IMG/VR virus record: IMGVR_UViG_3300017989_000514
Coordinates: 1 to 20,452 of that record
DNA: 20,452 nt
Direction: 5' to 3' (one strand)
From: a virus
The notes below the pieces were generated by a model. The model made no database searches. It was not told the DNA's origin and worked only from the letters and a program-made list of their open reading frames with translations. Positions 4,559-20,452 of the stretch are shown here, piece after piece. Within the stretch, counting starts at the first letter, position 1. Every line of letters begins with the position of its first letter. Position numbers and translations under genes: made by a program.

Positions 4559-5029
4559 ATGAAAAATGTTACGTTTTATCTCGGCCCAGCGGTGGGATTG
4601 ACTTCTCGTGCTCTGGTGATTACTCGAATGCCCGGTGCCGGTGATGACGATGCCATCACGCCGAGTGTGAATGCCACACTGGATGGTGCCGCCACGTCAA
4701 CTACACAAGCGCTTAATGATAATTACATTTATCAAGCTGTGCTGACGGACACAAAGACGACCGGCGAAATTTCGGAACCGGACATCCTTAATTTCAACAC
4801 AGGATCACTTCAGTTCCCAGGCCCTAAGAATCTTGGCGGACGATTGAGTGTGCTTTCGATGGAAGACCTCAGTTCGTCGTCTAGTTCGTCGTCCCAATCG
4901 TCGTCGTCCAGTTCGTCGTCCAGTTCTTCATCTTCTGCGTCGTCTCAGTCGTCTAGCTCGAGTTCAAGTAGCAGCTTGAATTCGTCATCCAGCTCGTCCG
5001 AGTCGTCCAGCAGTAGCTCCTCCACCTAA
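4559..5029 (+). CDS. small virion-type protein with 52-residue polyserine tail
   Basis: Start ATG 4559 is chosen over the upstream in-frame ATG 4508 because AGGAG (4546-4550) lies 8 bases before it. Residues 1-104 form a compact Thr/Asn/Asp-rich, beta-rich domain of unknown family (MKNVTFYLGPAVG ... GRLSVLSMEDL). Residues 105-156 are 45 serines out of 52, broken by Gln, Ala, Leu-Asn and Glu and ending in Thr. Serine is written with all six codons in mixed order, so the protein sequence rather than a simple DNA repeat seems to be kept. Such a tail should be disordered and could carry O-linked sugars. The same kind of tail ends the protein at 10454-11089. By position it may be a head decoration protein. 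Confidence 0.75.
   Translation: MKNVTFYLGPAVGLTSRALVITRMPGAGDDDAITPSVNATLDGAATSTTQALNDNYIYQAVLTDTKTTGEISEPDILNFNTGSLQFPGPKNLGGRLSVLSMEDLSSSSSSSSQSSSSSSSSSSSSSASSQSSSSSSSSSLNSSSSSSESSSSSSST
4871..5026 (+). repeat. serine-codon tract (polyserine tail 1)
   Basis: 52 codons, 45 of them serine: runs of 8, 13, 2, 9, 6 and 7 serines. TCG and TCC/AGT/AGC alternate irregularly, with TCGTCG doublets common, so there is short-period repetition but no long perfect repeat. Confidence 0.9.
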
Positions 5030-5043
5030 TCGGGAGTTCATTC

Positions 5044-5331
5044 ATGTTTCTGTCTTATGAACAAATCCAAGTCTCCAACACTGTTCTTGATGTTGACGAT
5101 TTGAATGTCCCTGCCAAGGCAACGCATGCGATGCTGCAAGCAGACACTCAACCCGTTCGATACACGATGGACGGTTTGACGGAGCCTTATCAGACGACCG
5201 GCATGGTATTGCTGACAACTTCCCCTCCTGAATTATTCCTGATCGAAGATTTGAGACGGATTAAATTCAAGAGGGGAGCGGCTTCGGATGGTCGTCTCAA
5301 TATCCATTACGTCGGTGGGAGGGATATTTAA
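5044..5331 (+). CDS. small accessory virion protein, 95 aa (beta-sandwich type)
   Basis: The sequence has the pattern of small beta proteins often found among phage head genes: KATHAMLQADTQPVRYTMDG (about residues 25-45), then a T-x-x-G turn with hydrophobic strand, and a final strand run (RIKFKRGAASDGRLNIHYVG). The 'ATHA-[LI]-[IL]-Q ... V-R-[YW]-x-x-D-G' signature is familiar to me from such proteins of unknown exact role; no search was run. GGGAG 8 bases upstream supports the ATG. Its TAA overlaps the ATG of the protease gene (TAATG), so the two are coupled. Confidence 0.7.
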   Translation: MFLSYEQIQVSNTVLDVDDLNVPAKATHAMLQADTQPVRYTMDGLTEPYQTTGMVLLTTSPPELFLIEDLRRIKFKRGAASDGRLNIHYVGGRDI

Positions 5332-7178
5332 TGGCCGTAAAGAATGAGCAACTTCTGTCTTCCATTCAACAGAGACAACACAAGCAAACGGAATTCGGTT
5401 ACGGTATTCTAACCGCTGATCGCCATGTTCGAAATCTGGAGAATGTTATTGGACTGGATAGTTGCTACCAATATGCTTCCACCAGAAGCAGTAGCTACAA
5501 TGACATCGTCCAGAAGGCGAGTCAGACCCTTGTTTATTCGAATCCCGACATGGAAGTCAAAGAAACGGGATTAGATGACTTGCGTGCTCGTGTCGGTGAA
5601 GACGTGGTTCTTCCTAAGAACATGCTAATGGCATTTGCCCATACGCTAACTTCGACTCGCAAGGATCGGGATAATGATGTTCTAGAAGCGGCCGGCGCTG
5701 TTATTGATCCAAGGATGTTGCTCCTGTGGCAGCATGTCCCAACCCTTCCTATCGGCAAGATGCTAGCGGTCACAGGTCGGGACGACCAGACAATTCAACT
5801 GATCTCCGCCATTGTGGACATGAACGATTTGAGTCACGACGCGGCGGTCATGGTGGATAACGGAATGGGGAGATTTTCCCATGGATTCCGTGCCCTGGAA
5901 TTTGAGGAATTGAATGACGAGGAATTCCCCGGCTTTCACGTTCTCAAATATGAAGTCATGGAGGAGTCGCTTGTCTCAGTTCCTTCCAATGTCGATGCCA
6001 CAACTCAAGAGATTCTGGTGTCGCTGGTGGAGGGAGATAAACTGACAAGTCCATTGATGAAGGAAATGGGGCGCTCGATACGTCGTGGCATGCCCTCTAT
6101 CGTGTCGGGTGGGATTCATTACAGAACAAACGGTAATGAATCAGAGATTACATGTGGTTCAGTTGCAGATTTGAAGGCCGTTGCTGAAGCTGGCCTCTTA
6201 GCGCAATCTAGTACGGAGGATATTGATGTGGCAGCCAAATCGAAAAAAGGAAAGCGAAGTGCCGGCAAGAGCGCCCGCACATCAAAAGAAGCCCAGCCGA
6301 ATCCCGAGCAAGGGGAACAGCAAGGGCAAGAAGAAGAGGCAGCTGAATACGAAGAAATGCCAAACGACGGGGCAATGAAGCTGAAAGAGGCCGCTGAAGA
6401 CCTCAAAGAAGCCATTGTCACGGAGGAGCTTTCTCGTGGGACTCGCAGCCTTCTAACGAATGCCATGGAAAATCTCCAGGAAATCGTTGAAGCCCTCCCA
6501 GCGCCGGCTGAGGGCGAAGAAGTTCCGGAAGAAGGCAAACAGGAGGAGGCCGAACCGACGACAGATCGTCCGGTTACTCTGTTGCCGAAGGGCACGAAAT
6601 CCAAATTGGAAGAAGTGGTTGAGGACTTGGAACTCGCTACGGAAACCGAAGAGATGCCTCGTGCTATCCACAGTCTTGTGAAAAGTGCCATCCGGGCACT
6701 CAAGGAAGTGGCCGAGCAAATCGAAGAAGCTGAAAAGCAGGAAGAAGAGGAGACGGAAGATCCGACCCCTCCGGCACCAACACCAGAAACGCCTACTCCG
6801 GAAGAGCCCAAATCTGCAAAGGCTGGCCGAGCGCTATCCAAGAGCAGTGAGGGCAAGATCAAGGAAGCCATTGAGGATCTTCAAGAAGCCGCCGAAATGG
6901 AAGAGGTTTCCCGAGGTGCTCGTAGCTTGATCAAGAGTGCTATCCGTCAATTAACGGAGGTCATGGAATCCACAACTCCTCCGGCTCCGGCCGAGGGTGG
7001 CGAAGAAGAAGGCAAGGCCGTTGAATTAACCGCCGACAAGTGTTTGGAATTTTTCCTTGCCAACGCCGATAAGAATCAGCAACAGAAGGCTTCGAGTATT
7101 CTCCTAGCTCTGTTAAAAATCGATGATACTAGCAAGGCGGCGGATGCTGTTCGCCGGTTGGTTGGAATCCTCGAATAA
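5331..7178 (+). CDS. prohead protease fused to C-terminal scaffold with triplicated helical repeat
   Basis: Residues 1 to about 235 carry a prohead serine protease of the HK97/S78 type. The 'DRDxD' entry (STRKDRDNDVLEAAG) is followed by WQHVPTLPIGKM with candidate catalytic His135, by RFSHGF with candidate Ser183, and by EESLVSVPSN with candidate Glu211/212. The family cuts scaffold and capsid N-termini inside the prohead. The remaining 380 residues are a Glu/Lys-rich scaffold: three 39-residue helical units (351-389, 426-464, 510-548) joined by acidic Pro-rich linkers, then a small helical C-terminal domain (563-615). HK97-like proteases are usually near 200-250 residues, so this is a protease-scaffold fusion. 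The ATG overlaps the previous stop after GGGAGGG. A hairpin follows the gene. Confidence 0.9.
   Translation: MAVKNEQLLSSIQQRQHKQTEFGYGILTADRHVRNLENVIGLDSCYQYASTRSSSYNDIVQKASQTLVYSNPDMEVKETGLDDLRARVGEDVVLPKNMLMAFAHTLTSTRKDRDNDVLEAAGAVIDPRMLLLWQHVPTLPIGKMLAVTGRDDQTIQLISAIVDMNDLSHDAAVMVDNGMGRFSHGFRALEFEELNDEEFPGFHVLKYEVMEESLVSVPSNVDATTQEILVSLVEGDKLTSPLMKEMGRSIRRGMPSIVSGGIHYRTNGNESEITCGSVADLKAVAEAGLLAQSSTEDIDVAAKSKKGKRSAGKSARTSKEAQPNPEQGEQQGQEEEAAEYEEMPNDGAMKLKEAAEDLKEAIVTEELSRGTRSLLTNAMENLQEIVEALPAPAEGEEVPEEGKQEEAEPTTDRPVTLLPKGTKSKLEEVVEDLELATETEEMPRAIHSLVKSAIRALKEVAEQIEEAEKQEEEETEDPTPPAPTPETPTPEEPKSAKAGRALSKSSEGKIKEAIEDLQEAAEMEEVSRGARSLIKSAIRQLTEVMESTTPPAPAEGGEEEGKAVELTADKCLEFFLANADKNQQQKASSILLALLKIDDTSKAADAVRRLVGILE
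6381..6974 (+). repeat. three 39-codon protein repeats in the scaffold part
   Basis: Units lie at 6381-6497, 6606-6722 and 6858-6974, equal in length with no gaps. 14 of 39 positions are the same in all three (E3, E6, D7, L8, A11, E15, E16, R19, S23, L24, A28, L32, E34, E37), for example IEDLQEA / AEDLKEA / VEDLELA. Linkers of 36 and 45 residues are rich in Pro, Glu, Ala and Thr. DNA identity is lower than protein similarity, so the duplication is old. Confidence 0.9.
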
Positions 7179-7188
7179 GTTTCGAATC

Positions 7189-7225
7189 AAACTGTGCCAT
7201 GGCGGTCATGGTGAGTTTATTTTTT
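7189..7225 (+). terminator. candidate hairpin terminator between protease and capsid genes
   Basis: AAACT (7189-7193) pairs with AGTTT (7214-7218), and CCATG (7197-7201) with CATGG (7207-7211), around a GCGGT loop and a 3x2 internal loop; A then T6 (7219-7225) follows. It is a modest terminator, perhaps a partial one or an RNA 5'-end stabiliser for the capsid message. Confidence 0.45.
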
Positions 7226-7252
7226 GAACCGTCAACCAAATTGGAGATCAAG

Positions 7253-8800
7253 ATGAATTTGACGGAAATGTTGAAAAGTTGGCTCGTCAAGAATTGTGGT
7301 GTTGCGAAAGACGCCACAGATGACGAGTTTCGTAAAGCGGCCGCCGCGGCACTTGTCAAAGGCACGTTGACGCCGGCCAAAATGGAAAAGCTCACCATCG
7401 AAGAGGGTGACGAGAAGGCCGTCGAAACGCTCGGCCATCTTGCCAAATCGATCGATTCGCTGACTTCCCAGATGGAAGATGGCGAACTAGAGAAGTCGGC
7501 CGAACCGGACACGAAACAAGTCGGTTCTCGTCGGTTCTCGAAAATGGTGTCCTCTATGGGTGGAACTCCGGTGGAAATCGATGGCAAGTCCGTCGACATC
7601 CGTGTCAAGGAAGCGGCCGAGCAATACGACACGACTCGCAAGTCTCTGTCGTATCCGGAAACGACCAAGAACGGAGCACCTCACCCGCTCGCCGGCCAAC
7701 GCGTGAAAGACGCCGGCCGAACGATCGATGCTCCCAGTGAGCAGGACAAGGCGCTTGCTGGTGCTTGGGCGAAGTTCCAGATTCGCACGGCCCAGCAAGG
7801 TGGAATTGCCGAGCGTGGTTTCGCTATGCTGACGGATCACGAAAAGTCGCTCCTGTTCTATATGGCGGACAACAGCGATTTCGATGCCAGTATGAACGGC
7901 AAGTCCCGAACCCGCAAGGGCTACGCTGGCGGTATGAAAGCCCTGATCGACGACTCGACCTCGGGTGGTATTGAAGCCGCTCCCATCGTGTTCGACGACA
8001 TGGTCATCCAAACTCCACTCCTACACGGTGAGCTTTATCCGCTGGTGAACGTGGTTCCGCTGGAACGTGGTCGACGGGTCGAAGGTGTTTCCACAGGCAC
8101 AGTCACGGCCTCGTGGGGTGGTGTGGACGACACGGCGATTGATCTGTTCAATACGGCGAGTTATGTCTCGGCGTTTGATACGACGGTCTTCCGCTGGGAA
8201 GGCGCCATCCGCATCGGCTTGGACTTCCTCGATGATTCGCCGATTGATTTCGGTGCCCACATCACTGCTCAATACGGTGAGCGGATGCTCGAAGATTTGG
8301 ACGACGTCATTGCGGCCGGCAACGGCACGACGCAGCCCGAGGGTATCATCAACAAGTCCGGGACGACCTCGGTCAACTTTGGTTCGACAACCAGCATCGG
8401 CAATTATGAATCCTTGCGGTTCGGCGTTGCCAAAGCGGAGCATCGACCCGACGTTGCCAAGACTGCGGTCTTCATCGGGAATGAAACCTCGTATCAACGG
8501 GCGCGTGCGTTACCCGTTGGCTCCTCGGATGCTCGGCGACTGTTCGGCATGGATTATGATGGATACTCCATCATGGAACGGCCGTACAAAATCAATGAGA
8601 CGCTTGCGAATACGCAGATCATGTATGCCATTCTTGCCCGATACCGAATGTATCGCCGCAAGGGCATCGACATCCGAACCACGACCGAGGGCGACACCCT
8701 CGTGCGACGGAACGAGATGATGATTGTCGCCATGGCTCGCTACGGTGGCCAGCTTGAGCGTGGAGCGTGTGCCGCGGTTACGACTTCGGCGCCTAGCTAA
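7253..8800 (+). CDS. major capsid protein, HK97 fold
   Basis: Start ATG 7253 is preferred to in-frame ATG 7199, since GGAG (7243-7246) lies 6 bases before it and the 7199 start would lie inside a hairpin. This gives 515 residues. The N-terminal 190 or so are charged and helical, like a cleavable delta (scaffold) domain. The capsid fold follows: GGIEAAPIVFDDMVIQ, the spine helix with WEGAIRIGLDFLDDSPIDFG, ITAQYGERMLEDLDDVIAAG and NGTTQPEGIINKSGT, and the P-domain end (MYRRKGIDIRTTTEGDTLVR ... MMIVAMARYGGQL). The 'LDDSPxD ... D-x-x-x-A-x-G-N-G-T-x-x-P-x-G-I' block is diagnostic. Codons end in C or G more often than in the neighbours, as expected for the most expressed virion gene. Confidence 0.93.
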   Translation: MNLTEMLKSWLVKNCGVAKDATDDEFRKAAAAALVKGTLTPAKMEKLTIEEGDEKAVETLGHLAKSIDSLTSQMEDGELEKSAEPDTKQVGSRRFSKMVSSMGGTPVEIDGKSVDIRVKEAAEQYDTTRKSLSYPETTKNGAPHPLAGQRVKDAGRTIDAPSEQDKALAGAWAKFQIRTAQQGGIAERGFAMLTDHEKSLLFYMADNSDFDASMNGKSRTRKGYAGGMKALIDDSTSGGIEAAPIVFDDMVIQTPLLHGELYPLVNVVPLERGRRVEGVSTGTVTASWGGVDDTAIDLFNTASYVSAFDTTVFRWEGAIRIGLDFLDDSPIDFGAHITAQYGERMLEDLDDVIAAGNGTTQPEGIINKSGTTSVNFGSTTSIGNYESLRFGVAKAEHRPDVAKTAVFIGNETSYQRARALPVGSSDARRLFGMDYDGYSIMERPYKINETLANTQIMYAILARYRMYRRKGIDIRTTTEGDTLVRRNEMMIVAMARYGGQLERGACAAVTTSAPS

Positions 8801-8830
8801 CCAACAAGAACGGGAAACCTCGTTGCAGCG

Positions 8831-8880
8831 CCTCGTCGTCGATTTTTGTTCTTCGTCGGCGGCGAGGTGTTTATTTTTTA
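8831..8880 (+). terminator. rho-independent terminator after the capsid gene
   Basis: A 12-pair stem joins 8831-8842 (CCTCGTCGTCGA) and 8856-8867 (TCGGCGGCGAGG), with two G-U pairs and a 13-base loop. A T-rich tract (8868-8879, ending in TTTTTT) follows. Stem and T tract lie within 70 bases of the capsid stop. Confidence 0.8.
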
Positions 8881-8919
8881 ATATAGAAGAACTGCCAGCA
8901 ACGCAATGAGGAAAGAAAC

Positions 8920-9498
8920 ATGTCTTTGCCATTTACAATCGAAGCGGATCATCCACGAAATTCGGATTTGTTGATTCAAAGCATTCCCAATTGCCGGCTC
9001 CGTTCGGCCATCGCCTCGGCGAAGGGAACCATCGTCAACATGCAAGATCCGGACAATATTCCGGTTATCCCAAAAGACCAATCCCGGCACCTCGGCAGCT
9101 TGCCGTTAATTCCCGGGATGCGTTTGTCTGTAAACCCCAAGAAAAAAACGTACACAATCTCCGACCCTCTGCACGAAGATGAAAAACTGTGCAAGCAAAT
9201 TGAACGAGCTTTGGAGTCGGACGATCGCCCTGTTCGGATGAGCAGTGTTCGAGGTGTTCCTCCAATGGAAGGAACATTGGACGAACACAGAATGAAGACT
9301 TTGATTCGTGAGCTTTTCCACATCGTGAAAACAGGAGAAGCCCGAGTTGTTAAGGGCAATTTGCCCGACATTCAAAGCATTGATGAATTGCCGGGAAAGT
9401 TTCTGTTGAATCCCGGTTCCCGAGTTCATAACAATCAACCGCAATTCGAAGAAGATTTGCCCGATTACATCAACAATCTGTCTCGGACAGGAGGCTAG
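8920..9498 (+). CDS. hypothetical phage protein after the capsid gene, 192 aa
   Basis: GAGGAAAG lies 6 bases before the ATG. The protein is mixed alpha/beta with several Pro-rich turns. Recognisable-looking parts are SLPLIPGMRLSVNPKKKTY (about 60-78), a helix near 120-138 (KTLIRELFHIVK), and a C-terminal FLLNPGSRVHNNQPQFEED segment before the DYINNLSRTGG end. I do not know the family. It occupies the slot where the head-tail connector normally stands, between capsid and gp10-like neck genes, so a connector or stopper role is possible by place only. Its stop is 2 bases before the next start. Confidence 0.7.
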   Translation: MSLPFTIEADHPRNSDLLIQSIPNCRLRSAIASAKGTIVNMQDPDNIPVIPKDQSRHLGSLPLIPGMRLSVNPKKKTYTISDPLHEDEKLCKQIERALESDDRPVRMSSVRGVPPMEGTLDEHRMKTLIRELFHIVKTGEARVVKGNLPDIQSIDELPGKFLLNPGSRVHNNQPQFEEDLPDYINNLSRTGG

Positions 9499-9500
9499 CG

Positions 9501-9968
9501 ATGCCCGCAATTGTGCCCCCTGCCTCCTCTGGAGTTCAATCAGCTAGAGAACGGCGGGAAACTAATGACGCCGTTATTGAAATCCAATGGCAAACGGCGC
9601 AAGTCCAAGACTCATTGGGACAGGACATGCAGCGGCGGTTATTGGTTGCCGCCGCTCTTGTTCAGTCCGCAGTGGTGAAAAATATCTCTGATCCCGTCAC
9701 GAAGGGGACAGGACCAAGAGGCGGTCAAGTTATTATGAATCGTTCGGTCGAAGGGGAATATCCAAAGGCGGACACGACAAATTTGATGAAACAGATTATT
9801 CATGGCGTGGATAAGAATGAACGTGGAGAAGTCGTGGGATTCGTAGGAACGACCGTTCACTATGGATTAATCCTTGAAACACGTATGGGACGCTTGATGC
9901 TGGCTTCCACGTTAGCAGAGAAAGCATCCGAGGTTCGAGCCATCCTAACGAAGCCGGTGAAGAAATGA
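9501..9968 (+). CDS. HK97 gp10-like neck / head-tail joining protein
   Basis: The 155-residue protein has the gp10-type arrangement: an N-terminal helix (MQRRLLVAAALVQSAVVKNI), a G-rich basic stretch (TKGTGPRGGQV), then VVGFVGTTVHYGLILE (about 110-125), matching the family's 'G-x-V-G-[ST]-x-V-x-Y-x-x-x-x-E' signature, followed by an amphipathic helix (RLMLASTLAEKASEV). Such proteins sit at the neck or tail end and are needed to join head and tail. AGGAGG upstream supports the start. The stop overlaps the next gene's ATG (ATGA). Confidence 0.75.
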   Translation: MPAIVPPASSGVQSARERRETNDAVIEIQWQTAQVQDSLGQDMQRRLLVAAALVQSAVVKNISDPVTKGTGPRGGQVIMNRSVEGEYPKADTTNLMKQIIHGVDKNERGEVVGFVGTTVHYGLILETRMGRLMLASTLAEKASEVRAILTKPVKK

Positions 9969-10441: not shown

Positions 10442-10453
10442 AGGAGGTTATCG

Positions 10454-11089
10454 ATGAGTGATCGCAGCACGTCGGGAGCAAGGATCAATTGGAAATTATC
10501 CGGGGTCTTCCGTAATACATTGACGGATACCACGATCCCGCAGGTGTCCCAACCAGATGCCGCTTATAATATCAGTCTGACTGATGGTGTGCAAGCCAGC
10601 CAAGCCAATCGAGTTTGGCAGAGCAAGAGCCGAGAATTATCCAGCGGAGCCAATGAGGTGCTCGACCTCTACGATATGGGCTCGATAGATATTGGTGGTG
10701 GTGCTGGAGCGGACGCCCTCGGGCAACCCGTTGATTTTGAAGAAATCGTGGCCATCTTAATCACGAATGATAATGGGATTGCTGCCGATGGTCAACTGGA
10801 AATTGAACCGGACGCTACGGCGGGTTGGACACCCATTGGAATTCACACAGCCGCTACGGGCGGCGCCTTACGTGGCCAAGGCTGCTTGGCAAAAGCCCAA
10901 CCGGCCGAAGCCGCATTTGATGTAGAAGATGCCGTTAGCCATCGAATCAAGATAACGGCGAACGGTGGGGATATCACTTACAGTATATTCATCTTCGCCC
11001 GTAACGATGACGATGATTCCAGTTCATCCAGTTCATCCAGTTCTAATAGTTCTTCCAGTTCTCAATCGAGTAGCTCTTCCTCAACATAA
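10454..11089 (+). CDS. virion structural protein with polyserine tail, 211 aa
   Basis: A full AAGGAGG six bases before the ATG predicts strong translation. Residues 1-184 form a beta-rich domain of a phage structural family that I know by pattern (KLSGVFRNTLTD ... VWQSKSRELSSGANEVLDL ... VDFEEIVAILITNDNG ... AVSHRIKITANGGDITYSI). It is often found beside tail genes and has no precise assigned role. After NDDDD (184-188), residues 189-211 are 20 serines in 23, with Asn and Gln as breaks and a closing Thr, the same design as the tail of the protein at 4559-5029. The two globular domains do not look alike, so the tail, not the whole gene, is shared. It is followed by the tail tube gene. Confidence 0.75.
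   Translation: MSDRSTSGARINWKLSGVFRNTLTDTTIPQVSQPDAAYNISLTDGVQASQANRVWQSKSRELSSGANEVLDLYDMGSIDIGGGAGADALGQPVDFEEIVAILITNDNGIAADGQLEIEPDATAGWTPIGIHTAATGGALRGQGCLAKAQPAEAAFDVEDAVSHRIKITANGGDITYSIFIFARNDDDDSSSSSSSSSNSSSSSQSSSSSST
11018..11086 (+). repeat. serine-codon tract (polyserine tail 2)
   Basis: 23 codons, 20 of them serine, in runs of 9, 5 and 6. The first nine codons repeat TCC AGT TCA nearly exactly three times; the rest is mixed. It ends ...SSSST-stop, as tail 1 does. Confidence 0.9.
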
Positions 11090-11103
11090 GGAGATGATTG
11101 AAA

Positions 11104-11505
11104 ATGACATCTGAAAACACATTGACGGGCCGAAATGGCCATGTGACAGTAGGCGGCACTGAGGTCGCCCGAATCACTATTTGGAGCGTAAATCCGACAC
11201 TCTCATCGACGAATGAATGGGGTGATTCGGATTCCGCTGGTTACACGAATCGTTCGGCCGGCCGTAGGGATTGCACTTTCGACTGCGAGGGAAAGTATGA
11301 TTCCACGAATGAGGTCTTTGACCTCTTTGTCCCTGGGGACACTGCCGCGGTCCGTCTTTATATTGACGAGACGTCTCTATATTGGGATTTTCCTCGTGCT
11401 CTTTGCATGGATTTCAATCTGAATATCAACGTCGACACGGAAGAAGTGGTTGGTTGGACGTCAAGCTGGGGAGCGGATGGCGTGTATACGAGACCAGGGG
11501 TTTAA
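11104..11505 (+). CDS. major tail protein (tail tube subunit)-like
   Basis: A 133-residue beta-rich protein. It opens TLTGRNGHVTVGGTEVARIT, an entry typical of short tail tube proteins, and goes on with W-x-x-N-P-T-L, the D-C-T-F-D-C-E-G-K-Y-D strand (about 58-68), DTAAVRLYIDETS, and an FNLNINVDTEEVVGWTSSWG ending. This 'strand, D-G-T, then E-x-x-G-W-x-S' ending is characteristic of the tube family. The frame also has TTG 11098; I chose ATG 11104, 10 bases after AAGGAG. Subunits stack as hexamer rings around the tape measure. A GC-rich hairpin follows. Confidence 0.75.
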   Translation: MTSENTLTGRNGHVTVGGTEVARITIWSVNPTLSSTNEWGDSDSAGYTNRSAGRRDCTFDCEGKYDSTNEVFDLFVPGDTAAVRLYIDETSLYWDFPRALCMDFNLNINVDTEEVVGWTSSWGADGVYTRPGV

Positions 11506-11512
11506 TTTTGAA

Positions 11513-11560
11513 GCCCGCCCCTATGGATTTGCAATTTCCTGGGCGGGCATATTCTTTATT
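11513..11560 (+). terminator. GC-rich hairpin terminator after the tail tube gene
   Basis: GCCCGCCC (11513-11520) and GGGCGGGC (11541-11548) form a perfect 8-pair all-GC stem with a 20-base loop that can pair further (GGA with TCC). T-rich ATATTCTTTATTGT follows. The T run is broken, so it may stop RNA only partly. It starts 8 bases after the stop codon and ends before the chaperone's binding site. Confidence 0.65.
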
Positions 11561-11576
11561 GTAACGAGGTGGCACA

Positions 11577-12249: not shown

Positions 12250-12640
12250 AAAAGACGATAATGAGACGCAGCCGATTGCCGGCTTATTGTGTGGCATTAC
12301 AACATGGCATGTCCGAGTCCTTTGCGAAAATCCATTCGAAGGGGGCAAGGGCTATACGCCTAAGCAAGTCGGGGATATGACGATCGACCAGATCCTCATG
12401 CTGTTATGCGAGAAGGAAATCCTACAAAATAGGAAGAAGAAAGTCTCTGCTTTAGAGGCATCCCAATTAATACCAGACGCTGACGGGACCATTAAAGGCC
12501 GTGCTGCCGATGGTACACCCATTCGAGGACGTATTCGGGGCAAGAGTGTTGTTCAGGAGTTGAGAGAAAAGATGGCCGCCGAAGAGGCGAAAAAGGCTCC
12601 GAATAAATCAGGCAGAAGGAGACGCCGTCGTGGGAATTGA
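12209..12640 (+). CDS. tail assembly chaperone T part, made as G-T fusion by -1 frameshift
   Basis: After the slip, reading continues at TGG 12209 and ends at the TGA at 12638-12640. This gives a G-T fusion of about 354 residues (211 from G plus 143). The T part has FEGGKGYTPKQVGDMTIDQI, then a helix (LMLLCEKEILQ), a basic stretch and an Arg-rich end (SGRRRRRRGN). In known systems the fusion is a minor product, a few percent of G, and its T domain contacts the tail tube. The only alternative start in the frame is TTG 12287, which has no good binding site, supporting the frameshift reading. The end overlaps the tape measure start. Confidence 0.85.
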   Translation, partial: WIGTAASKRRVSGSKDDNETQPIAGLLCGITTWHVRVLCENPFEGGKGYTPKQVGDMTIDQILMLLCEKEILQNRKKKVSALEASQLIPDADGTIKGRAADGTPIRGRIRGKSVVQELREKMAAEEAKKAPNKSGRRRRRRGN

Positions 12641-14447
12641 ACTTGCTCAAGCATACGTATCTATCAAAGGCGACGCCAGTGGATTTAAGAAGAGCGTGGA
12701 TAAGCAGAAGCCCGCTGTTCAAAAATCTATTGGCGATTTAGCTTCTAGTCTGAAAGGCATTCTTGCCGGTGTCGGTGCCGCATTCAGTATTGGTGCCATG
12801 CTCGGCAACATGAAAGAATCTATCGGCCTAGCTGAGATTCAGATAAATGCTGAGCAGCGTCTCACGAGTGCCATCAAAGCCCGCGGCGCCGCAGCTGGTG
12901 TGACAGCGAAGGAGATGATTGCATGGGCAAGTCAGCTTCAATCAGTAACGACCTTCGGTGATGAAGAAACAATAGCCGCCGCTTCAAGACTAATGGCATT
13001 CCAATCACAGACAGGAGACACACTCAAGCGAACCATGAAGGCTGCCATGGATTTATCTGCTGGCGGCTTCGGTCCACTTAAAAACATGTCTCTTCTATTG
13101 GCGAAATCTCTCGAAGACCCGATTGTCGGCATGACTGCCTTGAATAAAGCTGGTGTCGTTTTCAACGATACAGAGAAAAAGAGAATCCGGCAATTAGTTG
13201 AATCCAATCAATTGGGACAAGCCCAAGACATGATTCTAGCCCAAGCGGAAGCTAAAATGAAGGGTGTCGCGGAAGCCATGGCGGACACTCCTGTCGGTCG
13301 ATTGCAGCAAGCTCAAAACACACTCGGTGATATAAAAGAGGAAGCTGGCAAATTACTCATTCCTCTAGCAACGGGATTCACTCAATTAAAGATTGCCGCC
13401 CAGAAATCAATGAACACTATCTATTCTGTAATTGCTCCTGTTATTACAGCAGTCATGGAATTTAATGAGAGAACAGATGGTTCGATTACTTTGTTGGCGA
13501 GCGTAACACTGGGCATCTATGCTCTTGGAGCGGCGGTCAAATTCTTACGTAGTGGCATGATAAAATTGGCCGTTGTCAATGCCATAGCGTTTGCTCCCTT
13601 CTTCCTCATTGCTGCCGTTGTTGCCGGCATAGTATTGCTCGTTCGAAAAATATGGAGTATGGAGAAAGTCCAGAAAACCGTTGCCAACATATCGAAGAAG
13701 CTTGGTTACATCTGGCAAAATCTAAAAGAAGTTGGCATGGCATTGTGGAATGCCTTCCTGTCGGCCGCCAAATCCGTTGCCAATTTTATAGGAGACGTCC
13801 TCGGGGTGGACATGGCCGATCTTGGCGACAGTTTTGCTGAAATTGTCACAGGGATGGTTGACAGGTTCGCCGATTTTGTCTTAGAACTTACAGATTATAT
13901 GGTGGTCATTGCTGAGAATTGGGATCTGGTCTGGGGTAACATGGGGAAAATCATGCAACTCGCCCTTGATGAAATGTCCAATGGTTATTTAGACTGGATA
14001 GATGAAGCCCAAATTCGATTGGCAGAATTCTTCGCTTACGTAGCTGGTTATGAAACGGAAGACATCCGAGCGGATCATGATGCGGAAGCTCGAAAGGCAA
14101 AGGCTGAAGCAGAAGCCATTCTTCGACAATTGAAGGCGGCCGTAGAAGAACGCCGTAGGCAGCGTGAACAGGATGAAAAGGACAAAGACAAAGGACCAGA
14201 AGACAAGCCACCAGAAGCACCAGAACCGCCGGCAGTCCAAGCCGTAGTCGTGAAGGCGATTATCGATGATAAGCGATTAGGATTCGCTGACTTGGGAAGA
14301 AAAATGCAAGAGGCAATGCTCGATGCGGAACAAGATAAACGACAAGCCGAGATCGTTCGTTTGTTGGCAAATCAGTTACGAGCACAAGAGAGAATAGCAG
14401 ACGCAATGGAGAACCAAGAAATTGACGATCCTCCATTCTTAGTATAG
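12630..14447 (+). CDS. tape measure protein
   Basis: 605 residues starting at GTG, with AAGGAG 8 bases upstream and an 11-base overlap with the T gene. The N-terminus (GIELAQAYVSIKGDASGFKK) is the usual tape measure opening, followed by helices (SQLQSVTTFGDEETIAAASR, then the LMAFQSQTGDTLKRTMKAAM and GGFGPLKNMSLLLAKSL region, 120-165) that match phage tail tape measure domains. Two hydrophobic segments follow (about 284-304 and 311-338), of the kind that enter the host membrane during DNA ejection. The C-terminal third is helical, with a charged Pro-rich linker near 510-540. Length sets tail length; at roughly 0.15 nm per residue this would be a tail near 90 nm (estimate). No peptidase domain is seen. 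Confidence 0.9.
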   Translation: MGIELAQAYVSIKGDASGFKKSVDKQKPAVQKSIGDLASSLKGILAGVGAAFSIGAMLGNMKESIGLAEIQINAEQRLTSAIKARGAAAGVTAKEMIAWASQLQSVTTFGDEETIAAASRLMAFQSQTGDTLKRTMKAAMDLSAGGFGPLKNMSLLLAKSLEDPIVGMTALNKAGVVFNDTEKKRIRQLVESNQLGQAQDMILAQAEAKMKGVAEAMADTPVGRLQQAQNTLGDIKEEAGKLLIPLATGFTQLKIAAQKSMNTIYSVIAPVITAVMEFNERTDGSITLLASVTLGIYALGAAVKFLRSGMIKLAVVNAIAFAPFFLIAAVVAGIVLLVRKIWSMEKVQKTVANISKKLGYIWQNLKEVGMALWNAFLSAAKSVANFIGDVLGVDMADLGDSFAEIVTGMVDRFADFVLELTDYMVVIAENWDLVWGNMGKIMQLALDEMSNGYLDWIDEAQIRLAEFFAYVAGYETEDIRADHDAEARKAKAEAEAILRQLKAAVEERRRQREQDEKDKDKGPEDKPPEAPEPPAVQAVVVKAIIDDKRLGFADLGRKMQEAMLDAEQDKRQAEIVRLLANQLRAQERIADAMENQEIDDPPFLV

Positions 14448-14459
14448 AAAGCAATACAG

Positions 14460-15419
14460 ATGAGTCTTAATGAAAGTGTAAACCAGTGGAGGCTTCAAAC
14501 AGATGGGGGCATTCCTTATAAATTGGTTGCCGGTTATCCGCAAGGCGGTGGCACGCAAGGTGATGCTGAAATATCCGAACAGATCATCATCCAAGCAACT
14601 GATTTGGAAGCCTTCTTCGAAGAGAGTTTCCCATCTGAAATTCCTGGACCTCCGGGAACTTCATACACAATTAATACACCTCGGGCTTGTCCCCATCGAC
14701 AATACTTCTACACGGACTCGATCAAGTTCTCAGCACACGATACTTCTCGTCCTGTGGATCCTTGGTCTGTTGATGAGAGTGCTCCGGGAAGAACCTATGG
14801 TGATTTTCTAACACTCGACATTATTTACAAGCCACGTAAAGGAGCACCGCAAGAAGGAGATAACAGCGGGGACGAACGAGAATTTCCGGAGTACGAATTA
14901 TCTTCAGAAGGCTCTGGGGACTTCATTATGATTCCAGCGACAGAATGGTTGGCTGAAGATAATGAAGAAGACAAGCCCAAAGAAGTTGAATTCAAAATAC
15001 CACAAGCCATTCCAACAATCTCATGGACAGCCCGCTGGTCCAGTATTAGTCGAGACACGGCTTCATTCATTCTAGCACAATCACGGCAAGTGCTGGGACA
15101 AGTAAACAATGTCGTATTGTCTCAAATTTACAATGCCCCGGCAGAAACCATCCTGTTTCTAGGATTCAACATCCAGGAGAATTATCAATTCGTTTGGGGT
15201 GAGAAACAGAAGACAACATTGTCTTTGGAATTGTCGTTTGTAGAAAAGAATGTTCAAATACCAATCGAGGCCGGAGTGGCTCAAACAATAACCCACAATC
15301 ATATCTACAGGCCAAGCACGGGGCGGTGGGAAAAGCTCCAGAGACCGGATGGTGGGCTCCTTTACAAGCTCGGAAATTTATCTGGATTATTCTGGGTTCC
15401 AGATCAGGACCAAAATTAA
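14460..15419 (+). CDS. tail protein downstream of the tape measure, 319 aa
   Basis: The gene lies where distal tail / tail-tip genes normally lie. The protein is beta-rich, with an acidic, loop-like middle (KGAPQEGDNSGDEREFPEYE, about 125-145, then a segment with EDNEEDKPKEVEF near 170-180). Later parts show a strand-helix region (WTARWSSISRDTASFILAQS) and a QVNNVVLSQIYNAPAETILF stretch, which looks like the tail of a tip or baseplate domain. I do not recognise the family. The binding site is weak (AGAAAG). The TAA overlaps the ATG of the fibre gene (TAATG), indicating a shared role at the tail tip. Confidence 0.7.
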   Translation: MSLNESVNQWRLQTDGGIPYKLVAGYPQGGGTQGDAEISEQIIIQATDLEAFFEESFPSEIPGPPGTSYTINTPRACPHRQYFYTDSIKFSAHDTSRPVDPWSVDESAPGRTYGDFLTLDIIYKPRKGAPQEGDNSGDEREFPEYELSSEGSGDFIMIPATEWLAEDNEEDKPKEVEFKIPQAIPTISWTARWSSISRDTASFILAQSRQVLGQVNNVVLSQIYNAPAETILFLGFNIQENYQFVWGEKQKTTLSLELSFVEKNVQIPIEAGVAQTITHNHIYRPSTGRWEKLQRPDGGLLYKLGNLSGLFWVPDQDQN

Positions 15420-16774
15420 TGAAAGTTCCGCAAAAAAGAAAAGGCGATCCCCTCAGAGCCGCTGAGGTCAATGAGATGGCCAGAGGTGCCCGTGCCGGTG
15501 CTGGTTTATCTGCTGGGCTGAATTTGTATTCTACCCAACTAGCCGACGCCAAACATTTCTTAGCTAATCCGGAACATCATCAGCATACTTTTCAAATCAC
15601 CAATCTCAAAGCATTTGAGGATGATACGGAAACGAGTGGTCTGTATTTAGGTCGGATGCTCTTCTACGATGCCGATGATGAAGAATGGGATGTCCGAGCC
15701 GAACAGAGTGTTGGTGGGGATGACTCCGAACAAATCATAGATGCCAATTCTATTGGCGTCATATTGAATGTTGGGGATCGTGTTGTCTGCTATTTTGATT
15801 CTCAGCGGCGGGCTTACGTGCCTATCGGTGGCCCCGGTGCCGGTGGCGGTTCCCAAGCCTACTTCCAGACTGTCTCGACGTGGCAATGGCCGGTTGGTTC
15901 TGGGCAATACGCGGACTGTTATATGATGCTATGGGACGCTGTGTCTAATTCTTATAAAGTTGACACTAGCCGAACCTTTCGTGTGTGGTCCCCTATCGTG
16001 GAACAATGGGATCCCATCTATAATGGAACACCCTCTTCAACCCCTCGCACAATCTTCGATTTCGTATTAGGTTATTTCGACACCATATCCCAGCGGTGGC
16101 AGGTTAGTTATTCGAATCAAAATAATAGAAGACTCGCCAAGTGTTCTTCGGACTGGTCTGTGGATGGGACTGATGCTGTCGTCCAAGTCCAGATTTGTGA
16201 TCCGGACTCTAAGGCAGTCATAAGCAGCACAGCAAACAAAGCTATCATCCATCGCAATTGGGATGCTACTTATTTGACGGCTCCGGCTCCGGCCGTTTGG
16301 CAAGATGATTTCGTCTGGGTTGATGTAGACCTCGGTGGAAATGTTACTGTTGCCAGTGCCGTAGCTTTTCATTATCTTAAACAAGTCATCACGTATCGTG
16401 GCTCTGCTACGAATATCCCAACGGGTTTCAAACTACTGGATGGCACAAACTATCCGGCCGGAAGTAAGATTGGGACAGGGGCTTCCCCAGACATGAAGAA
16501 GCGCTTCATAATGGGAATCGATGCAGGAAGTGCCGAAGCCTCTGAAAATGCTATCGGTGGTACAGGTGGGGAAGAAACGCAGAATCATCGCCATGAATTG
16601 GATTCGACTACATACGTCACCGCTGGCGTGGCAGCAGGAACGGATGAAACAGTCATTACAAATGATGATGTTCCATATACTAGCGGGCTTGAAGAATTGG
16701 CAGTGCCTCAAGGAAATTTTGAAGAGAATCGTCCTCCATGGTATGTCTTCGCTCTAATTGAGCGTTACAAATAG
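15419..16774 (+). CDS. tail fibre / tail collar-domain protein
   Basis: Start ATG 15419 overlaps the preceding stop and has AGGA (15406-15409) 9 bases upstream, giving 451 residues; an upstream in-frame ATG at 15326 lies inside the previous gene. The N-terminus (MKVPQKRKGDPLRAAEVNEM) is probably the virion anchor. The centre (about 100-330) is beta-rich, Trp/Tyr/Asp-rich, as in fibre shafts and adhesins. The C-terminal 118 residues form a collar-like fold: GFKLLDGTNYPAG, PDMKKRFIMGID, GGTGGEETQNHRHEL and a PPWYVFALIERYK end. The HRH (His390, His392) resembles the metal-binding pair of collar and short-fibre tips. It likely binds host surface structures. The carbohydrate genes follow directly. 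Confidence 0.8.
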   Translation: MKVPQKRKGDPLRAAEVNEMARGARAGAGLSAGLNLYSTQLADAKHFLANPEHHQHTFQITNLKAFEDDTETSGLYLGRMLFYDADDEEWDVRAEQSVGGDDSEQIIDANSIGVILNVGDRVVCYFDSQRRAYVPIGGPGAGGGSQAYFQTVSTWQWPVGSGQYADCYMMLWDAVSNSYKVDTSRTFRVWSPIVEQWDPIYNGTPSSTPRTIFDFVLGYFDTISQRWQVSYSNQNNRRLAKCSSDWSVDGTDAVVQVQICDPDSKAVISSTANKAIIHRNWDATYLTAPAPAVWQDDFVWVDVDLGGNVTVASAVAFHYLKQVITYRGSATNIPTGFKLLDGTNYPAGSKIGTGASPDMKKRFIMGIDAGSAEASENAIGGTGGEETQNHRHELDSTTYVTAGVAAGTDETVITNDDVPYTSGLEELAVPQGNFEENRPPWYVFALIERYK

Positions 16775-16783
16775 AGAAGAACA

Positions 16784-18004
16784 ATGGAAATTTGTGTTTA
16801 TCGTGGCAACGAAACAGGACACCAGACTGAAAATGGATGTCCTGTCTATGAATGTCGTCTTCTACGGGAATGCGTCGCCAGTGGTGGCGGTCCGAAATTC
16901 CCCTCGTGTGATGATTGTCGCCACACACTCTTGAAATCAAGCCCGACGTTCGCCTCTGACTGGCAAGATCCCCTCATCATAGTAAACAGCAGGAGGGAGT
17001 CAACGGACGCACTGCGGGACAGCATGGGCGGCCGTGCCGGCTTTTTGTTGTGTGGCGGTCCCTCGGCTAATGATTTGGACCTGCAATTGCTCCAGCAGCG
17101 AGGAGCATGGACCATGGCAGTCAACAACGCCGCAGGACATCCACAGTGCCGGCCGAATGCTTTTGTTTGCTCCGACCCGCCCGCCAAATTTCACCATAGC
17201 ATCTGGTTGGATCCTGGCATTATGAAGTTCGTTCCCGATGCCAAACTCCTCCGCAGTCGCAATTATCTTCGACGCAAGTGTGAAGATGGGACATTTGAAC
17301 CGCTAGAAGTTCGTGCTGATAAGGCACCGAATGTTTGGGGCTTCCGCCGGCGGAATTGGATGGTCCCTGATGACACGTTTTTTATGGAAGACGCCGCTGC
17401 TTGGGGAAACATGGACGAGGGTGTAAAGTTATACGGGGAACGGAAGACGGCTTGCACCATGTTGATTGCCATCCGGTTGATGTATTACCTTGGATTCCGC
17501 ACCATTTTCATGCTGGGTGTGGATTTCCGCATGGCGGCCGGGCTGGGTTACAGCTTTGGGCAAGCCCGAGATGCCGGCGCTATGGAATCTAATAATGTCC
17601 AATACGACATTGTGAATGATTGGATGGATCGATTGACGGCTTCAGGAACTCTTGATCGCTTTGGTTTGCGTATGTTCAATTGCTTTCAACATTCCGGTCT
17701 GCGGGCATTCCCATACGTGCCGTTTGATCAAGCTCTTCAAGTGGCATGCAAAGGGATCGACCAGACTCCAGACTTGTCGGAGTGGTATGAAAAAGGAATC
17801 GACATGGATGGGAAATTCTACCTGTTTGTCCGCAGGTATGAATGGCACAATGATCGGGAATTGGCGTCTGTGCGATACGGTCGCCATGAACCACGCTTGG
17901 CATATCGGGAGAGGGGAAATAAGAGATGGAAATGGGTCGAAACCCAGACTGAGGAATGGGTTCAAGACATAATCAAAAAAGGAGAAGAACAAAATGACGG
18001 ATGA
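16784..18004 (+). CDS. MAF/DUF115-like sugar-transfer protein with Cys-rich N-terminus
   Basis: 406 residues in two parts. Residues 1-48 hold six cysteines in the pattern C4...C19-x4-C24-x5-C30...C42-x2-C45 (CVYRG, GCPVYECRLLRECV, CDDCRH), a probable zinc-binding knuckle. The rest resembles the MAF / DUF115 6-hydroxymethylpterin pyrophosphokinase-like fold: GFLLCGGPSANDLDLQLLQQ (86-105) as the nucleotide loop with AVNNAAGHPQCRPNAFVCSD next, and a later GFRTIFMLGVDF (237-248). MAF proteins glycosylate flagellin with nonulosonic acids in some bacteria. The function here is inferred. A Shine-Dalgarno-like GAGAAG precedes the ATG, and the stop overlaps the cupin start by 11 bases. Confidence 0.7.
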   Translation: MEICVYRGNETGHQTENGCPVYECRLLRECVASGGGPKFPSCDDCRHTLLKSSPTFASDWQDPLIIVNSRRESTDALRDSMGGRAGFLLCGGPSANDLDLQLLQQRGAWTMAVNNAAGHPQCRPNAFVCSDPPAKFHHSIWLDPGIMKFVPDAKLLRSRNYLRRKCEDGTFEPLEVRADKAPNVWGFRRRNWMVPDDTFFMEDAAAWGNMDEGVKLYGERKTACTMLIAIRLMYYLGFRTIFMLGVDFRMAAGLGYSFGQARDAGAMESNNVQYDIVNDWMDRLTASGTLDRFGLRMFNCFQHSGLRAFPYVPFDQALQVACKGIDQTPDLSEWYEKGIDMDGKFYLFVRRYEWHNDRELASVRYGRHEPRLAYRERGNKRWKWVETQTEEWVQDIIKKGEEQNDG

Positions 18005-18377
18005 TATCCCCGCAATCCGCCCCAAGCAAGGAAAAATCTGGGGCTACACGATGATGCCGTTTGCATTCAATAATATTGAGTCTCATGGCATCCAGGTCGA
18101 CGCCGGCACGTATTGCTCGAATCATGACCATCGCACGAAATGGAATCGTTTCTTTGTGTTAGTAGGCAAATTGAAGATCTGCCAATACACGGACGATGGT
18201 GAGAGCATAACAGATGAAACCATTGTCGGGCCGTGGGAAGTCACAGACGTTCCCCCTGGCGTCCGCCATACATTTGAAGCACTGGAAGACACAATCGCGG
18301 TTGAATACTACTGGTCCCCATTGGATCCAGATGATATTGACCGACACGGAACTCACGGAGGTCGAAATCATGGTTGA
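17994..18377 (+). CDS. cupin-domain protein, 127 aa
   Basis: One small beta-barrel of the cupin type. Motif 1 is G38-x5-H44-x-H46-x4-N51-x6-G58 (GTYCSNHDH ... NRFFVLVGKL), with Asn where the usual metal-binding Glu stands. Motif 2 has P88-G89-x2-H92 (VPPGVRHTFEAL). The protein ends in a YYWSPLDPDDIDRHG segment. Cupins of this size include sugar-nucleotide isomerases, epimerases and mannose-6-phosphate isomerase-like proteins; which of these, if any, cannot be told. Its place among glycosyltransferase genes points to a sugar-related job. GGAGAAG precedes the ATG; the start overlaps the MAF-like gene, and the stop overlaps the next gene by 8 bases. Confidence 0.78.
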   Translation: MTDDIPAIRPKQGKIWGYTMMPFAFNNIESHGIQVDAGTYCSNHDHRTKWNRFFVLVGKLKICQYTDDGESITDETIVGPWEVTDVPPGVRHTFEALEDTIAVEYYWSPLDPDDIDRHGTHGGRNHG

Positions 18378-18531
18378 TTTTACAACGGTCTGTGGTGTTG
18401 ATAGTAAGCACTTCCAACAACTGTGTTGGACATGGCCGACTTGGAAAAAGTGGAAGCCGAACATCTTAAATGCCAATGTTGATCTTCCGGGAAAGCTCGG
18501 TGCCCGAGTCCCAAATCCGTGCCAACATTGA
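18370..18531 (+). pseudogene. 5' part of a frameshifted glycosyltransferase gene
   Basis: The ATG has a very strong site (GGAGGT, 18357-18362, 7 bases away) and overlaps the cupin stop. The first residues (MVDFTTVCGVDSKHFQQLC, then WTWPTWKKWKPNIL) are a glycosyltransferase N-terminus by pattern. After about residue 33 the sequence stops looking like that family and ends at TGA 18529-18531, while the family continues in the +1 frame (18470-19168). A single-base change, sequencing or assembly error, or a +1 translational shift would explain it. Confidence 0.65.
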
Positions 18532-19168
18532 TCATCCCGAACTCATGGTCGTGGAATGGCCTCCTGAGAGTGCAACATATTCCGGCGACACAGATAGCAA
18601 GTGGTATCATCCACAAAGATACAAAATGCTTTCCGGATTCGTTCACGTGCCGGCTTTATACGTGGAGACACCTTATTGGCTTAAACTCGATACGGACGTC
18701 GTTGCCAATCACACTCCTGATTGGATAGATGAAGACTGGTTCCGGGATGATCCGGCAATCATTGCTCATCGGTGGGGCTATACAAAGCCGCCAAATCAAA
18801 TGGAGCTTCTGGACAATTGGGTTCGGGAAAACCAAGATCAAATGCCTTGGCTTTCCTTGAAGGAACCCCTCCACCTATACCCGGAACCAAACGCAACACG
18901 CGTCTCCCATGCACGCATCATCAGTTTCTGTGGATTTTTCCAAACCAAATTCAGCCAACATTGCTCCACCATTGCCGAGCGGGTCTGTGGTATTGGGCAA
19001 TTGCCAGTGCCGAGCCAAGACGGGTTTCACTGGTATGCCGCGAAAAGGATTGGATACAAAATTATACGAACAAATATGAAATCCCGCGGTTGGCAGCACT
19101 GGTCCACAACAGACAACATCCTCAAAGCTGTTGAAGAAGCCATGGAATCGCCTGTGGATGGCGTGTAG
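18470..19168 (+). CDS. GT-A-type glycosyltransferase, main part (N-terminus in another frame)
   Basis: 232 residues from the first ATG in the frame, but the true start is probably ATG 18370, in the -1 frame relative to this one. The frame is closed upstream by a TAA at 18467-18469, right before this ATG, and no good binding site precedes it. The protein shows a GT-A core: YKMLSGFVHVPALYVETPYW, then LKLDTDVVAN with the DTD (74-76) metal-binding motif, WIDEDWF, HRWGYTKP (a conserved-looking turn), and a C-terminal part with DGFHWYAAKRIGYKII. It would transfer sugar from an activated donor. Acceptor and donor are unknown. The intact catalytic core argues for a recent lesion or an error rather than long decay. 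Confidence 0.75.
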   Translation: MPMLIFRESSVPESQIRANIDHPELMVVEWPPESATYSGDTDSKWYHPQRYKMLSGFVHVPALYVETPYWLKLDTDVVANHTPDWIDEDWFRDDPAIIAHRWGYTKPPNQMELLDNWVRENQDQMPWLSLKEPLHLYPEPNATRVSHARIISFCGFFQTKFSQHCSTIAERVCGIGQLPVPSQDGFHWYAAKRIGYKIIRTNMKSRGWQHWSTTDNILKAVEEAMESPVDGV

Positions 19169-19177
19169 TGCGTTAAT

Positions 19178-19255
19178 ATGTTTCAAGGTGTTCTGTGTCC
19201 TATTTGTAATTTGACGCCGACACGGGCGAACGTATCGGCATTATCTGGTATTTAA
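19178..19255 (+). CDS. possible small ORF, 25 aa, with CPIC motif
   Basis: In the gap between two glycosyltransferase genes an ATG opens a 25-codon frame (MFQGVLCPICNL ... ALSGI) with a CxxC pair and a stop at TAA 19253-19255. No clear ribosome binding site is present. It could be a CxxC peptide or chance. The rest of the gap is only the AAGGA site of the next gene. Confidence 0.15.
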   Translation: MFQGVLCPICNLTPTRANVSALSGI

Positions 19256-19271
19256 GGAAGAAGGAAACAAG

Positions 19272-20168
19272 ATGAGATCCGCACGCGTGTGTTATTTGAT
19301 GTCCGGGCAACCGCACCTCCCCTATTTGACTGTCTCTTTATGGACACTGCGACAACATTATAACGGTCCTGTGACTGTGGCTGCTTGGCCGGAGTCAATT
19401 GATCTTCTTCGACAAATCGCCCAGGACAAAAGATTGGACATCGCCGTTCAAGTTCGCCGGCCGGCGATACGTGGGAAAAATGACCAGTTCATGGACAAGA
19501 TTGCCATGGCAATGGACCAAGATGGTCCGATGATTTATTTGGACGCGGACACCTCCATTCACGCTCCGATCCAACCCATCTTTGATAGGTTGGAGAAGTT
19601 CGATTTTGTTTCCACACAATTCTGTGATTGGGAAACCTCTTCTCCCATGATTGCTAATCGGATTCAAGGACTGGCGGAATTTGAGGGAATTCCATCCCAA
19701 TTGGTTGAAGACTTCTTGTTGCGGTCTTGGCCGAGTGTGAATGGAGGTGTTTGGGGTGCATTGCCGGACTCTCCGATTCTCCCTCACTGGCTCGCATACA
19801 CGGAAGCCGCCAAAAGAACATTCATCGCCGATGAGAAAGTCTTACATCTTATGTTAGGTGTCTATGCTCCATCTGGAAAAATGACAGTTATGACAGATCG
19901 CGGCCGCTGGAATTGTTCACCAAAGTATCAGCCGGCCGACTTGGCAGACGAAGACGTGGCTATTTATCATTATCACGGAGACTGTAATGTGAGGCCCAAG
20001 AAATGCGTTCGGGGGCTGTCGATCTGGTGGCCGATGTATCAAGAATGCATCGAAAACAATGTTGGAGGCATACAAGATTGGCACACGACCGTCAACAATA
20101 AATGGATTCGAGTAATCGAAAAAGAGATTGTTGAACAAGAGCACCAGCAGTGTAATGGAGAAGGATAA
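19272..20168 (+). CDS. glycosyltransferase, GT-A fold (GT8-like)
   Basis: 298 residues with AAGGA before the ATG. The GT-A landmarks are clear: an N-terminal Rossmann start (VCYLMSGQPHLPYLTVSLWT), the GPMIYLDADTSIHAPI motif (85-100) with DAD 91-93 as the Mn/donor-binding DxD, SVNGGVWGA (155-163) as the acceptor-side motif, and the late IYHYHGD (231-237) with His residues as the second metal site. Such retaining enzymes use UDP- or related sugars. There is no membrane anchor, so it is cytosolic. It lies in the carbohydrate block, and its TAA overlaps the ATG of the next gene. Confidence 0.85.
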   Translation: MRSARVCYLMSGQPHLPYLTVSLWTLRQHYNGPVTVAAWPESIDLLRQIAQDKRLDIAVQVRRPAIRGKNDQFMDKIAMAMDQDGPMIYLDADTSIHAPIQPIFDRLEKFDFVSTQFCDWETSSPMIANRIQGLAEFEGIPSQLVEDFLLRSWPSVNGGVWGALPDSPILPHWLAYTEAAKRTFIADEKVLHLMLGVYAPSGKMTVMTDRGRWNCSPKYQPADLADEDVAIYHYHGDCNVRPKKCVRGLSIWWPMYQECIENNVGGIQDWHTTVNNKWIRVIEKEIVEQEHQQCNGEG

Positions 20169-20452
20169 TGAAAGTCATTCGGACTTTATGGGGTGATAAT
20201 TTTCCGGGTTCCAGATGGAAGAAGGTTTGGCGGTCCAATGTCTTGCCGGCAATGTCACAGGCATGGTCCATGCCGCAAACTGTGTATGTATTTGGGACAG
20301 AGAATGCTGAACGACTTGCCGACTTGAAAAATCCATTCTGTAATATCGTATTGATGGACGAGGATCCATGGGGAGGACAAAGCCCAGATCAGGACAGCCC
20401 CGAACATGATACTTGGCTACGACCTTGGATTCTAAAATGGTTAGCTATTGAC
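20168..20452 (+). CDS. 5' part of a glycosyltransferase-like gene (runs off window)
   Basis: The ATG overlaps the previous TAA and has AAGGA 5 bases before it; the frame stays open for 95 codons to the right edge. The N-terminus (MKVIRTLWGDNFPGSRWKK) and a later EHDTWLRPWILKWLAID stretch resemble the beginning of phage and bacterial glycosyltransferases that start 'RTLWG' and carry an acceptor/donor helix before the DxD. The DxD would lie outside the window. The call is by pattern and neighbours. Confidence 0.5.
   Translation, partial: MKVIRTLWGDNFPGSRWKKVWRSNVLPAMSQAWSMPQTVYVFGTENAERLADLKNPFCNIVLMDEDPWGGQSPDQDSPEHDTWLRPWILKWLAID

Follow-up and report, generated by a model that had tools for sequence, protein, structure and literature searches.

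The window analysed here, 20,452 bases long, is an IMG/VR fragment of tailed-phage DNA. Its genes and features are as follows.

1176–2738, + strand: portal protein, the anchor of the structural block (phrog_2662, E 5e-31)
2742–3764, + strand: head morphogenesis protein (phrog_2468, E 2e-23)
4508–5029, + strand: polyS1, an N-terminal domain of 121 residues and, after it, a polyserine tail of 52 residues (open reading frame, tailed homologues, domain alignment)
4871–5026, + strand: polyserine tail 1, residues 122–173 of polyS1
5331–7178, + strand: prohead protease-like protein with a long acidic repeat region (phrog_617, E 1.5e-14, a family named major head protein)
7199–8800, + strand: major capsid protein (phrog_10, E 3e-18)
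10454–11089, + strand: polyS2, an all-beta (jelly-roll-like) domain of 188 residues and, after it, a polyserine tail of 23 residues (open reading frame, homologues, model, Foldseek)
11018–11086, + strand: polyserine tail 2, residues 189–211 of polyS2
11098–11505, + strand: probable major tail protein (phrog_1407, E 0.011, a weak match; 52–69% identity in close relatives)
12630–14447, + strand: tape measure protein (phrog_27166, E 1e-30)
14460–15419, + strand: g21, a conserved tail gene that serves as a landmark
15326–16774, + strand: tail collar/fibre protein (phrog_1800, E 2.6e-8), true start uncertain
16784–18004, + strand: putative GT42-like CMP-sugar transferase (profile against the PDB, AlphaFold2 model, Foldseek)
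17994–18377, + strand: WbuC-like cupin (TIGR04366, E 1.1e-9, 38.3 bits against a cut-off of 42; phrog_7851, E 1.8e-11)
18370–19168, + strand: gtA, a GT-A type glycosyltransferase with an invariant DxD, split by a frameshift
19272–20168, + strand: gtB, a GT8/glycogenin-like glycosyltransferase (Pfam match of a homologue, profile, invariant residues)
20168–20452, + strand: start of a further open reading frame, cut at the window end and called a glycosyltransferase by inspection in the preliminary description

The polyS1 gene sits between the head morphogenesis gene and the prohead protease/major capsid gene, and the polyS2 gene sits between the tail completion genes and the gene of the major tail protein. 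The protease role of the 5331–7178 product is suggested by gene order. This protein contains three similar acidic repeats of about 30 residues, and their antisense strand forms a serine-rich open reading frame (6119–6871), a trap for polyserine searches. In two related loci, L006 (3215–3967) and L014 (3037–3849), a GT8-like gene lies between the portal and head morphogenesis genes.

Polyserine tails in the window and its relatives

The preliminary description reported two unrelated small structural-type proteins ending in serine tails, and recounting confirms it, with serine at 45 of 52 positions in tail 1 and at 20 of 23 in tail 2. Against a baseline of 6.3% serine in the other proteins of the window, the binomial log10 P is −46 for tail 1 and −21 for tail 2. 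Both tails mix serine codons of the TCN block (four codons) and the AGY block (two codons), and identical neighbouring codons are not in excess. The mixing of the two blocks rules out a DNA-repeat or microsatellite artefact; therefore, selection is on the protein and not on a DNA repeat. An antisense artefact is also ruled out, since the tails are on the sense strand of conserved genes; antisense reading of acidic genes does give some apparent polyserine among the relatives, as in G066. Tail 1 is repeated in a second contig, L002, which is 100% identical over most genes.

Relatives were collected from the viral contigs of IMG/VR in scans whose queries were the capsid protein, the transferase, gtA and the two domains that bear the tails. 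The scans gave more than 200 loci, many of them on the same contigs. For the major capsid protein, the best 80 of 107 relatives were kept; for the transferase, a single-sequence scan found no relatives and an alignment scan did. A serine tail is present in 57 of 61 distinct complete copies of polyS1, and the remaining four are two copies with shorter serine tails and two apparently broken fragments. For polyS2, the tail is present in 67 of 79 distinct complete copies, with polyserine elsewhere in the protein in five more. Tails are retained on homologues at about 40–60% identity, and the tail-less polyS2 copies are the most distant, at about 32–41%. The tails range from 21 to 703 residues in length and are about 77% serine, threonine being the commonest other residue. 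Of 124 tails, 123 draw on both blocks of serine codons.

Polyserine is also found on other proteins and in other arrangements. A homologue of the collar protein carries a third tail in L017 and L018. In record G003, as oriented, the region 20759–25987 codes for two fibre-like proteins whose polyserine, about 350 residues in one and about 680 in the other, ranks among the longest found. In G009, a polyS2 paralogue (25124–27790) joins the polyS2 domain to a following glycine-rich domain through a polyserine stretch of about 490 residues. The polyS2 homologues of L134 and L145 have, after the polyserine, an aromatic-rich C-terminal domain (YSNGxYxLWW-like), possibly a binding domain.

The model of polyS2 is an all-beta domain with a pLDDT of 94.3. 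Its Foldseek matches are weak; alongside viral jelly rolls, carbohydrate-binding domains and convertase domains, they comprise many phage proteins that are uncharacterised. As modelled, the fold would suit a virion decoration or adaptor protein. The tailed proteins are probably present in the virion particle, with their polyserine tails presumably disordered.

Sugar-related genes downstream of the tail genes

The transferase at 16784–18004 was described earlier as an MAF/DUF115-like protein, a label for which we find little support. The window protein has no match to PF01973, the MptE-like family that includes the MAF proteins; nine of the 23 aligned members match it weakly, the best with an E of 0.0036, below the cut-off. 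Among curated profiles in general, the window transferase matches none over cut-off. A profile of the 23 sequences searched against the PDB gave nine matches, eight of which are GT42 sialyltransferases (E 0.009–0.04). The AlphaFold2 model (pLDDT 89.8) has as its top Foldseek match CstII of C. jejuni (1ro8; probability 1.00, E 8e-4), a remote match with 12% identity and a target TM-score of 0.48. All matches with a probability above 0.9 are sialyltransferases, including Cst-I and mammalian enzymes. G92-P93-S94 and Y256-x-F258 are invariant in the 23 sequences, and the GPS loop and the YxF motif align to CstII, where YxF is the region of the CMP-binding tyrosine. At the place equivalent to the GT42 catalytic histidine, the profile alignment, weak in that region, has no histidine. 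Thus, plain MAF membership is set aside in favour of the GT42 CMP-sialyltransferases, and the modelled fold, by its best matches, is that of a GT42-like CMP-sugar transferase. An additional or alternative copy of the transferase lies outside the cassette in G005, G016, G029, G033 and G061. In G005 and G016 this copy is upstream of the portal genes; for the others, its position on the record is what was established.

The preliminary description counted at least four sugar-related genes at the end of the block. The transferase, the cupin and the GT-A genes bear this out, with two corrections: the MAF label is weakly supported, and a frameshift between 18468 and 18473 splits gtA, which is a single open reading frame in relatives. 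The window copy may be a real pseudogene or reflect a sequencing error. For gtA, the PDB gave no match. For gtB, the homologue in G003 matches Pfam Glyco_transf_8 with 27.8 bits, over the cut-off of 24.3, and the window protein alone falls below that profile's cut-off. The gtB profile matches glycogenin-2 (E 3e-4), and residues D91, D93, H233 and H235, that is, the DxD and a C-terminal His motif, are invariant in 19 sequences. The open reading frame at 20168–20452 gave no family match, and tblastn against the relatives gave none either.

The window cuts the cassette after the second glycosyltransferase and the open reading frame fragment. Its further extent was read from 17 loci selected for the length of their downstream sequence. 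The transferase (labelled maf in these counts), gtA, gtB and GT244, a further GT-A enzyme that resembles chondroitin synthase and beta-1,3-GlcNAc transferases, are each present in all 17. The cupin is present in 14, and a KdsB-like protein and a class I methyltransferase in 13 each; 12 have an FkbM methyltransferase, 12 another methyltransferase and 12 a sulfotransferase-like protein. The KdsB-like CMP-Kdo synthetase is known from relatives, its gene lying past the window end. Two such proteins have best-model E values of 1e-45 and 2e-51 and score 155.7 and 174.3 bits against a curated cut-off of 193. The transferase fold and this CMP-Kdo synthetase-like enzyme fit together. The sulfotransferase-like protein has a PAPS-binding motif (PKTGTTW-like) in several members and no match in Pfam, NCBIfam or the PDB; its sequence makes a sulfotransferase possible. 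No cassette protein has a clear membrane helix: a few just touch the threshold of 1.6, and the tape measure protein reaches 2.78. The cassette looks suited to a soluble cytosolic acceptor rather than to lipopolysaccharide.

Co-occurrence of tails and cassette

With the transferase left out of the queries, 67 related records were found, and 29 of them contain it. In 28 of these, the gene follows the tail genes on their downstream side; with some of the records forming near-identical pairs, the number of distinct viruses is slightly lower. In the 29th, G005, the transferase is upstream of the portal gene, and the downstream site lies beyond the end of the record. The distance from g21 to the transferase is 1.5–8 kb in loci found through the transferase. 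Tail-bearing records without a transferase end before g21 or at most about 6 kb past it. Since they end inside this range, none is a firm counterexample, the closest being G038, which has tails and no transferase. A survey of related phages for tails without enzymes, as had been proposed at the outset, thus found no clear case. The gtA scan gave 41 loci, all in such cassettes so far as inspected, and the newly found ones have further cassette genes.

The negative controls are consistent with the link. Three unrelated records of 172, 73 and 29 kb have a lone distant transferase, with neither gtA nor polyserine. The tail-less polyS2 homologues of G066 and G067 are accompanied by no cassette and no sense-strand polyserine. 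L083 is a mixed case: the cassette is present, the polyS2 homologue is tail-less, and polyserine is found on a 690-residue protein. Across the tail-bearing records, identity between capsid proteins falls to about 50%, and the tails and the cassette core are kept together while the neighbouring fibre genes differ. All phages with tails and cassette belong to one lineage, and therefore shared ancestry is the main caveat.

Among 50,697 phage records there is no match to the window's major capsid protein, polyS2, transferase or gtA, so that cultured relatives for these four proteins are lacking in the records searched. Remote relatives of the capsid protein (L058, L059, L060 and L256; 35–39% identity for three of these loci) are from Planctomycetota and one Porticoccaceae MAG, and the DNA examined there has no tails and no cassette. 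Going by sequence similarity, they are a weak hint to the host group.

Proposed glycosylation of the tails, alternatives and known systems

We lean, with modest confidence, to the proposal that cytosolic enzymes of the phage O-glycosylate the polyserine tails of the virion before or during assembly. A host sugar would be turned by the KdsB-like enzyme into a CMP-activated ulosonic acid, either CMP-Kdo or a similar compound. Serine, or the chain as it grows, would receive this acid and ordinary sugars from the GT42-like transferase, the GT8 enzyme and the other GT-A enzymes, and the methyltransferases, the cupin and the possible sulfotransferase would finish the glycan. The glycan would be acidic, methylated and perhaps sulfated, and it would cover head and tail as a hydrophilic sugar brush with a negative charge. 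Such a coat could bind to, or hide from, host surfaces. That phage enzymes decorate the virion tails had been put forward in the preliminary description; the co-occurrence in the survey and a cassette suited to a soluble cytosolic acceptor speak for it, whereas the tails as acceptor are our inference, as are the choice of sugar, the sequence of reactions and what the phage gains. It is tempting to extend the proposal to a mucin-like coat, in which dense O-glycans on the polyserine of head, tail and fibre proteins, started or capped by a CMP-ulosonate-derived sugar, methylated and possibly sulfated, would give the whole particle a charged brush; this extension we hold only tentatively.

The cassette might instead act on other virion proteins, such as the capsid, tail tube, collar or adhesins, with polyserine as a flexible spacer or anti-aggregation brush. 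Polyserine does join two domains in the G009 protein, as it does in the Saccharophagus enzymes with polyserine linkers (PMC2386152), and the glycoproteins of mycobacteriophages are capsid and tail tube proteins (PMC12363180). However, a plain spacer is unexpected at a C-terminus with nothing beyond it, the arrangement found in the window and most relatives, and the lone distant transferases come without polyserine. We regard action on other acceptors as rather doubtful. Tails and cassette could also co-occur by shared ancestry in one lineage with unrelated functions, since all positives have homologous structural genes in the same order; but they stay together where capsids have diverged and neighbouring fibre genes vary, and the most distant tail-less relatives are without the cassette, which makes mere shared ancestry decidedly improbable.

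If the enzymes remodelled a surface glycan of the infected host, be it lipopolysaccharide or another, for serotype conversion or exclusion of other phages, this would account for a KdsB-like enzyme, Kdo being an inner-core lipopolysaccharide sugar, and for the WbuC-like cupin, as such cupins are found in O-antigen loci. We judge such remodelling unlikely: the cassettes encode neither a flippase nor a lipid-linked transferase nor any clear membrane protein, they directly follow the late structural block, and they are strongly tied to the polyserine phages. It is well known that some phage glycosyltransferases act on modified cytosine, and modification of the phage's own DNA bases was therefore considered as a role of the cassette. 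It is extremely improbable, since PF00303 (thymidylate synthase/hydroxymethylase) occurs in only one of 22 large records, some of them fragments, and a KdsB-like enzyme with a CMP-sugar transferase is unlike known DNA glucosylation.

If glycosylation of the tails is true, it would be a self-contained, phage-encoded pathway of protein O-glycosylation with a simple repetitive acceptor, the serine run, and would explain why these phages bear serine tails. It would also extend virion glycosylation past the mycobacteriophage cases to an uncultured lineage and offer glycobiology a small, testable set of acceptor and enzymes.

Several known systems resemble parts of the proposal. In mycobacteriophages Che8, Corndog and Myrna, capsid and tail tube proteins are modified by glycosyltransferases that the phages themselves encode (Freeman 2023, cited from PMC12363180). 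Phage-encoded glycosylation of virion proteins would be the shared feature, judged here from the genes; in contrast, the available part of that account describes neither a polyserine acceptor nor a CMP-ulosonate module. Maf transferases put Kdo or Neu5Ac from CMP donors onto Ser/Thr of flagellin (PMC11339370), and the likeness proposed here is cytosolic transfer from CMP-nonulosonate or CMP-Kdo to Ser/Thr of a self-assembling surface protein. The window family differs in that its similarity to the Pfam MptE-like family is weak and that the solved structures it matches are GT42 and GT29 enzymes, with no MAF protein in the list of 50 matches. CstII and Cst-I of GT42 are the best structural and profile matches, with the GPS motif and the tyrosine of the YxF motif invariant. 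However, the match is remote, the catalytic histidine is not located in the window family, and the usual acceptors of GT42 enzymes are sugars, not protein.

The serine-rich repeat glycoproteins of Gram-positive bacteria likewise have a serine-rich acceptor beside a dedicated, multi-enzyme cytosolic glycosylation locus. There the acceptor is an exported adhesin and here it would be a virion; ten proteins of the window and relatives gave no NCBIfam match to the initiating transferases GtfA/GtfB. In Saccharophagus enzymes and related bacteria, polyserine is a passive linker (PMC2386152). The long, near-pure serine stretches, sometimes between domains, are alike, whereas here they are mostly C-terminal tails on phage structural-type proteins and tied to a glycan cassette. 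Our literature search found no report of phage polyserine, which is not proof of absence. Virion glycosylation and polyserine linkers are each known, and it is their combination that would be new.
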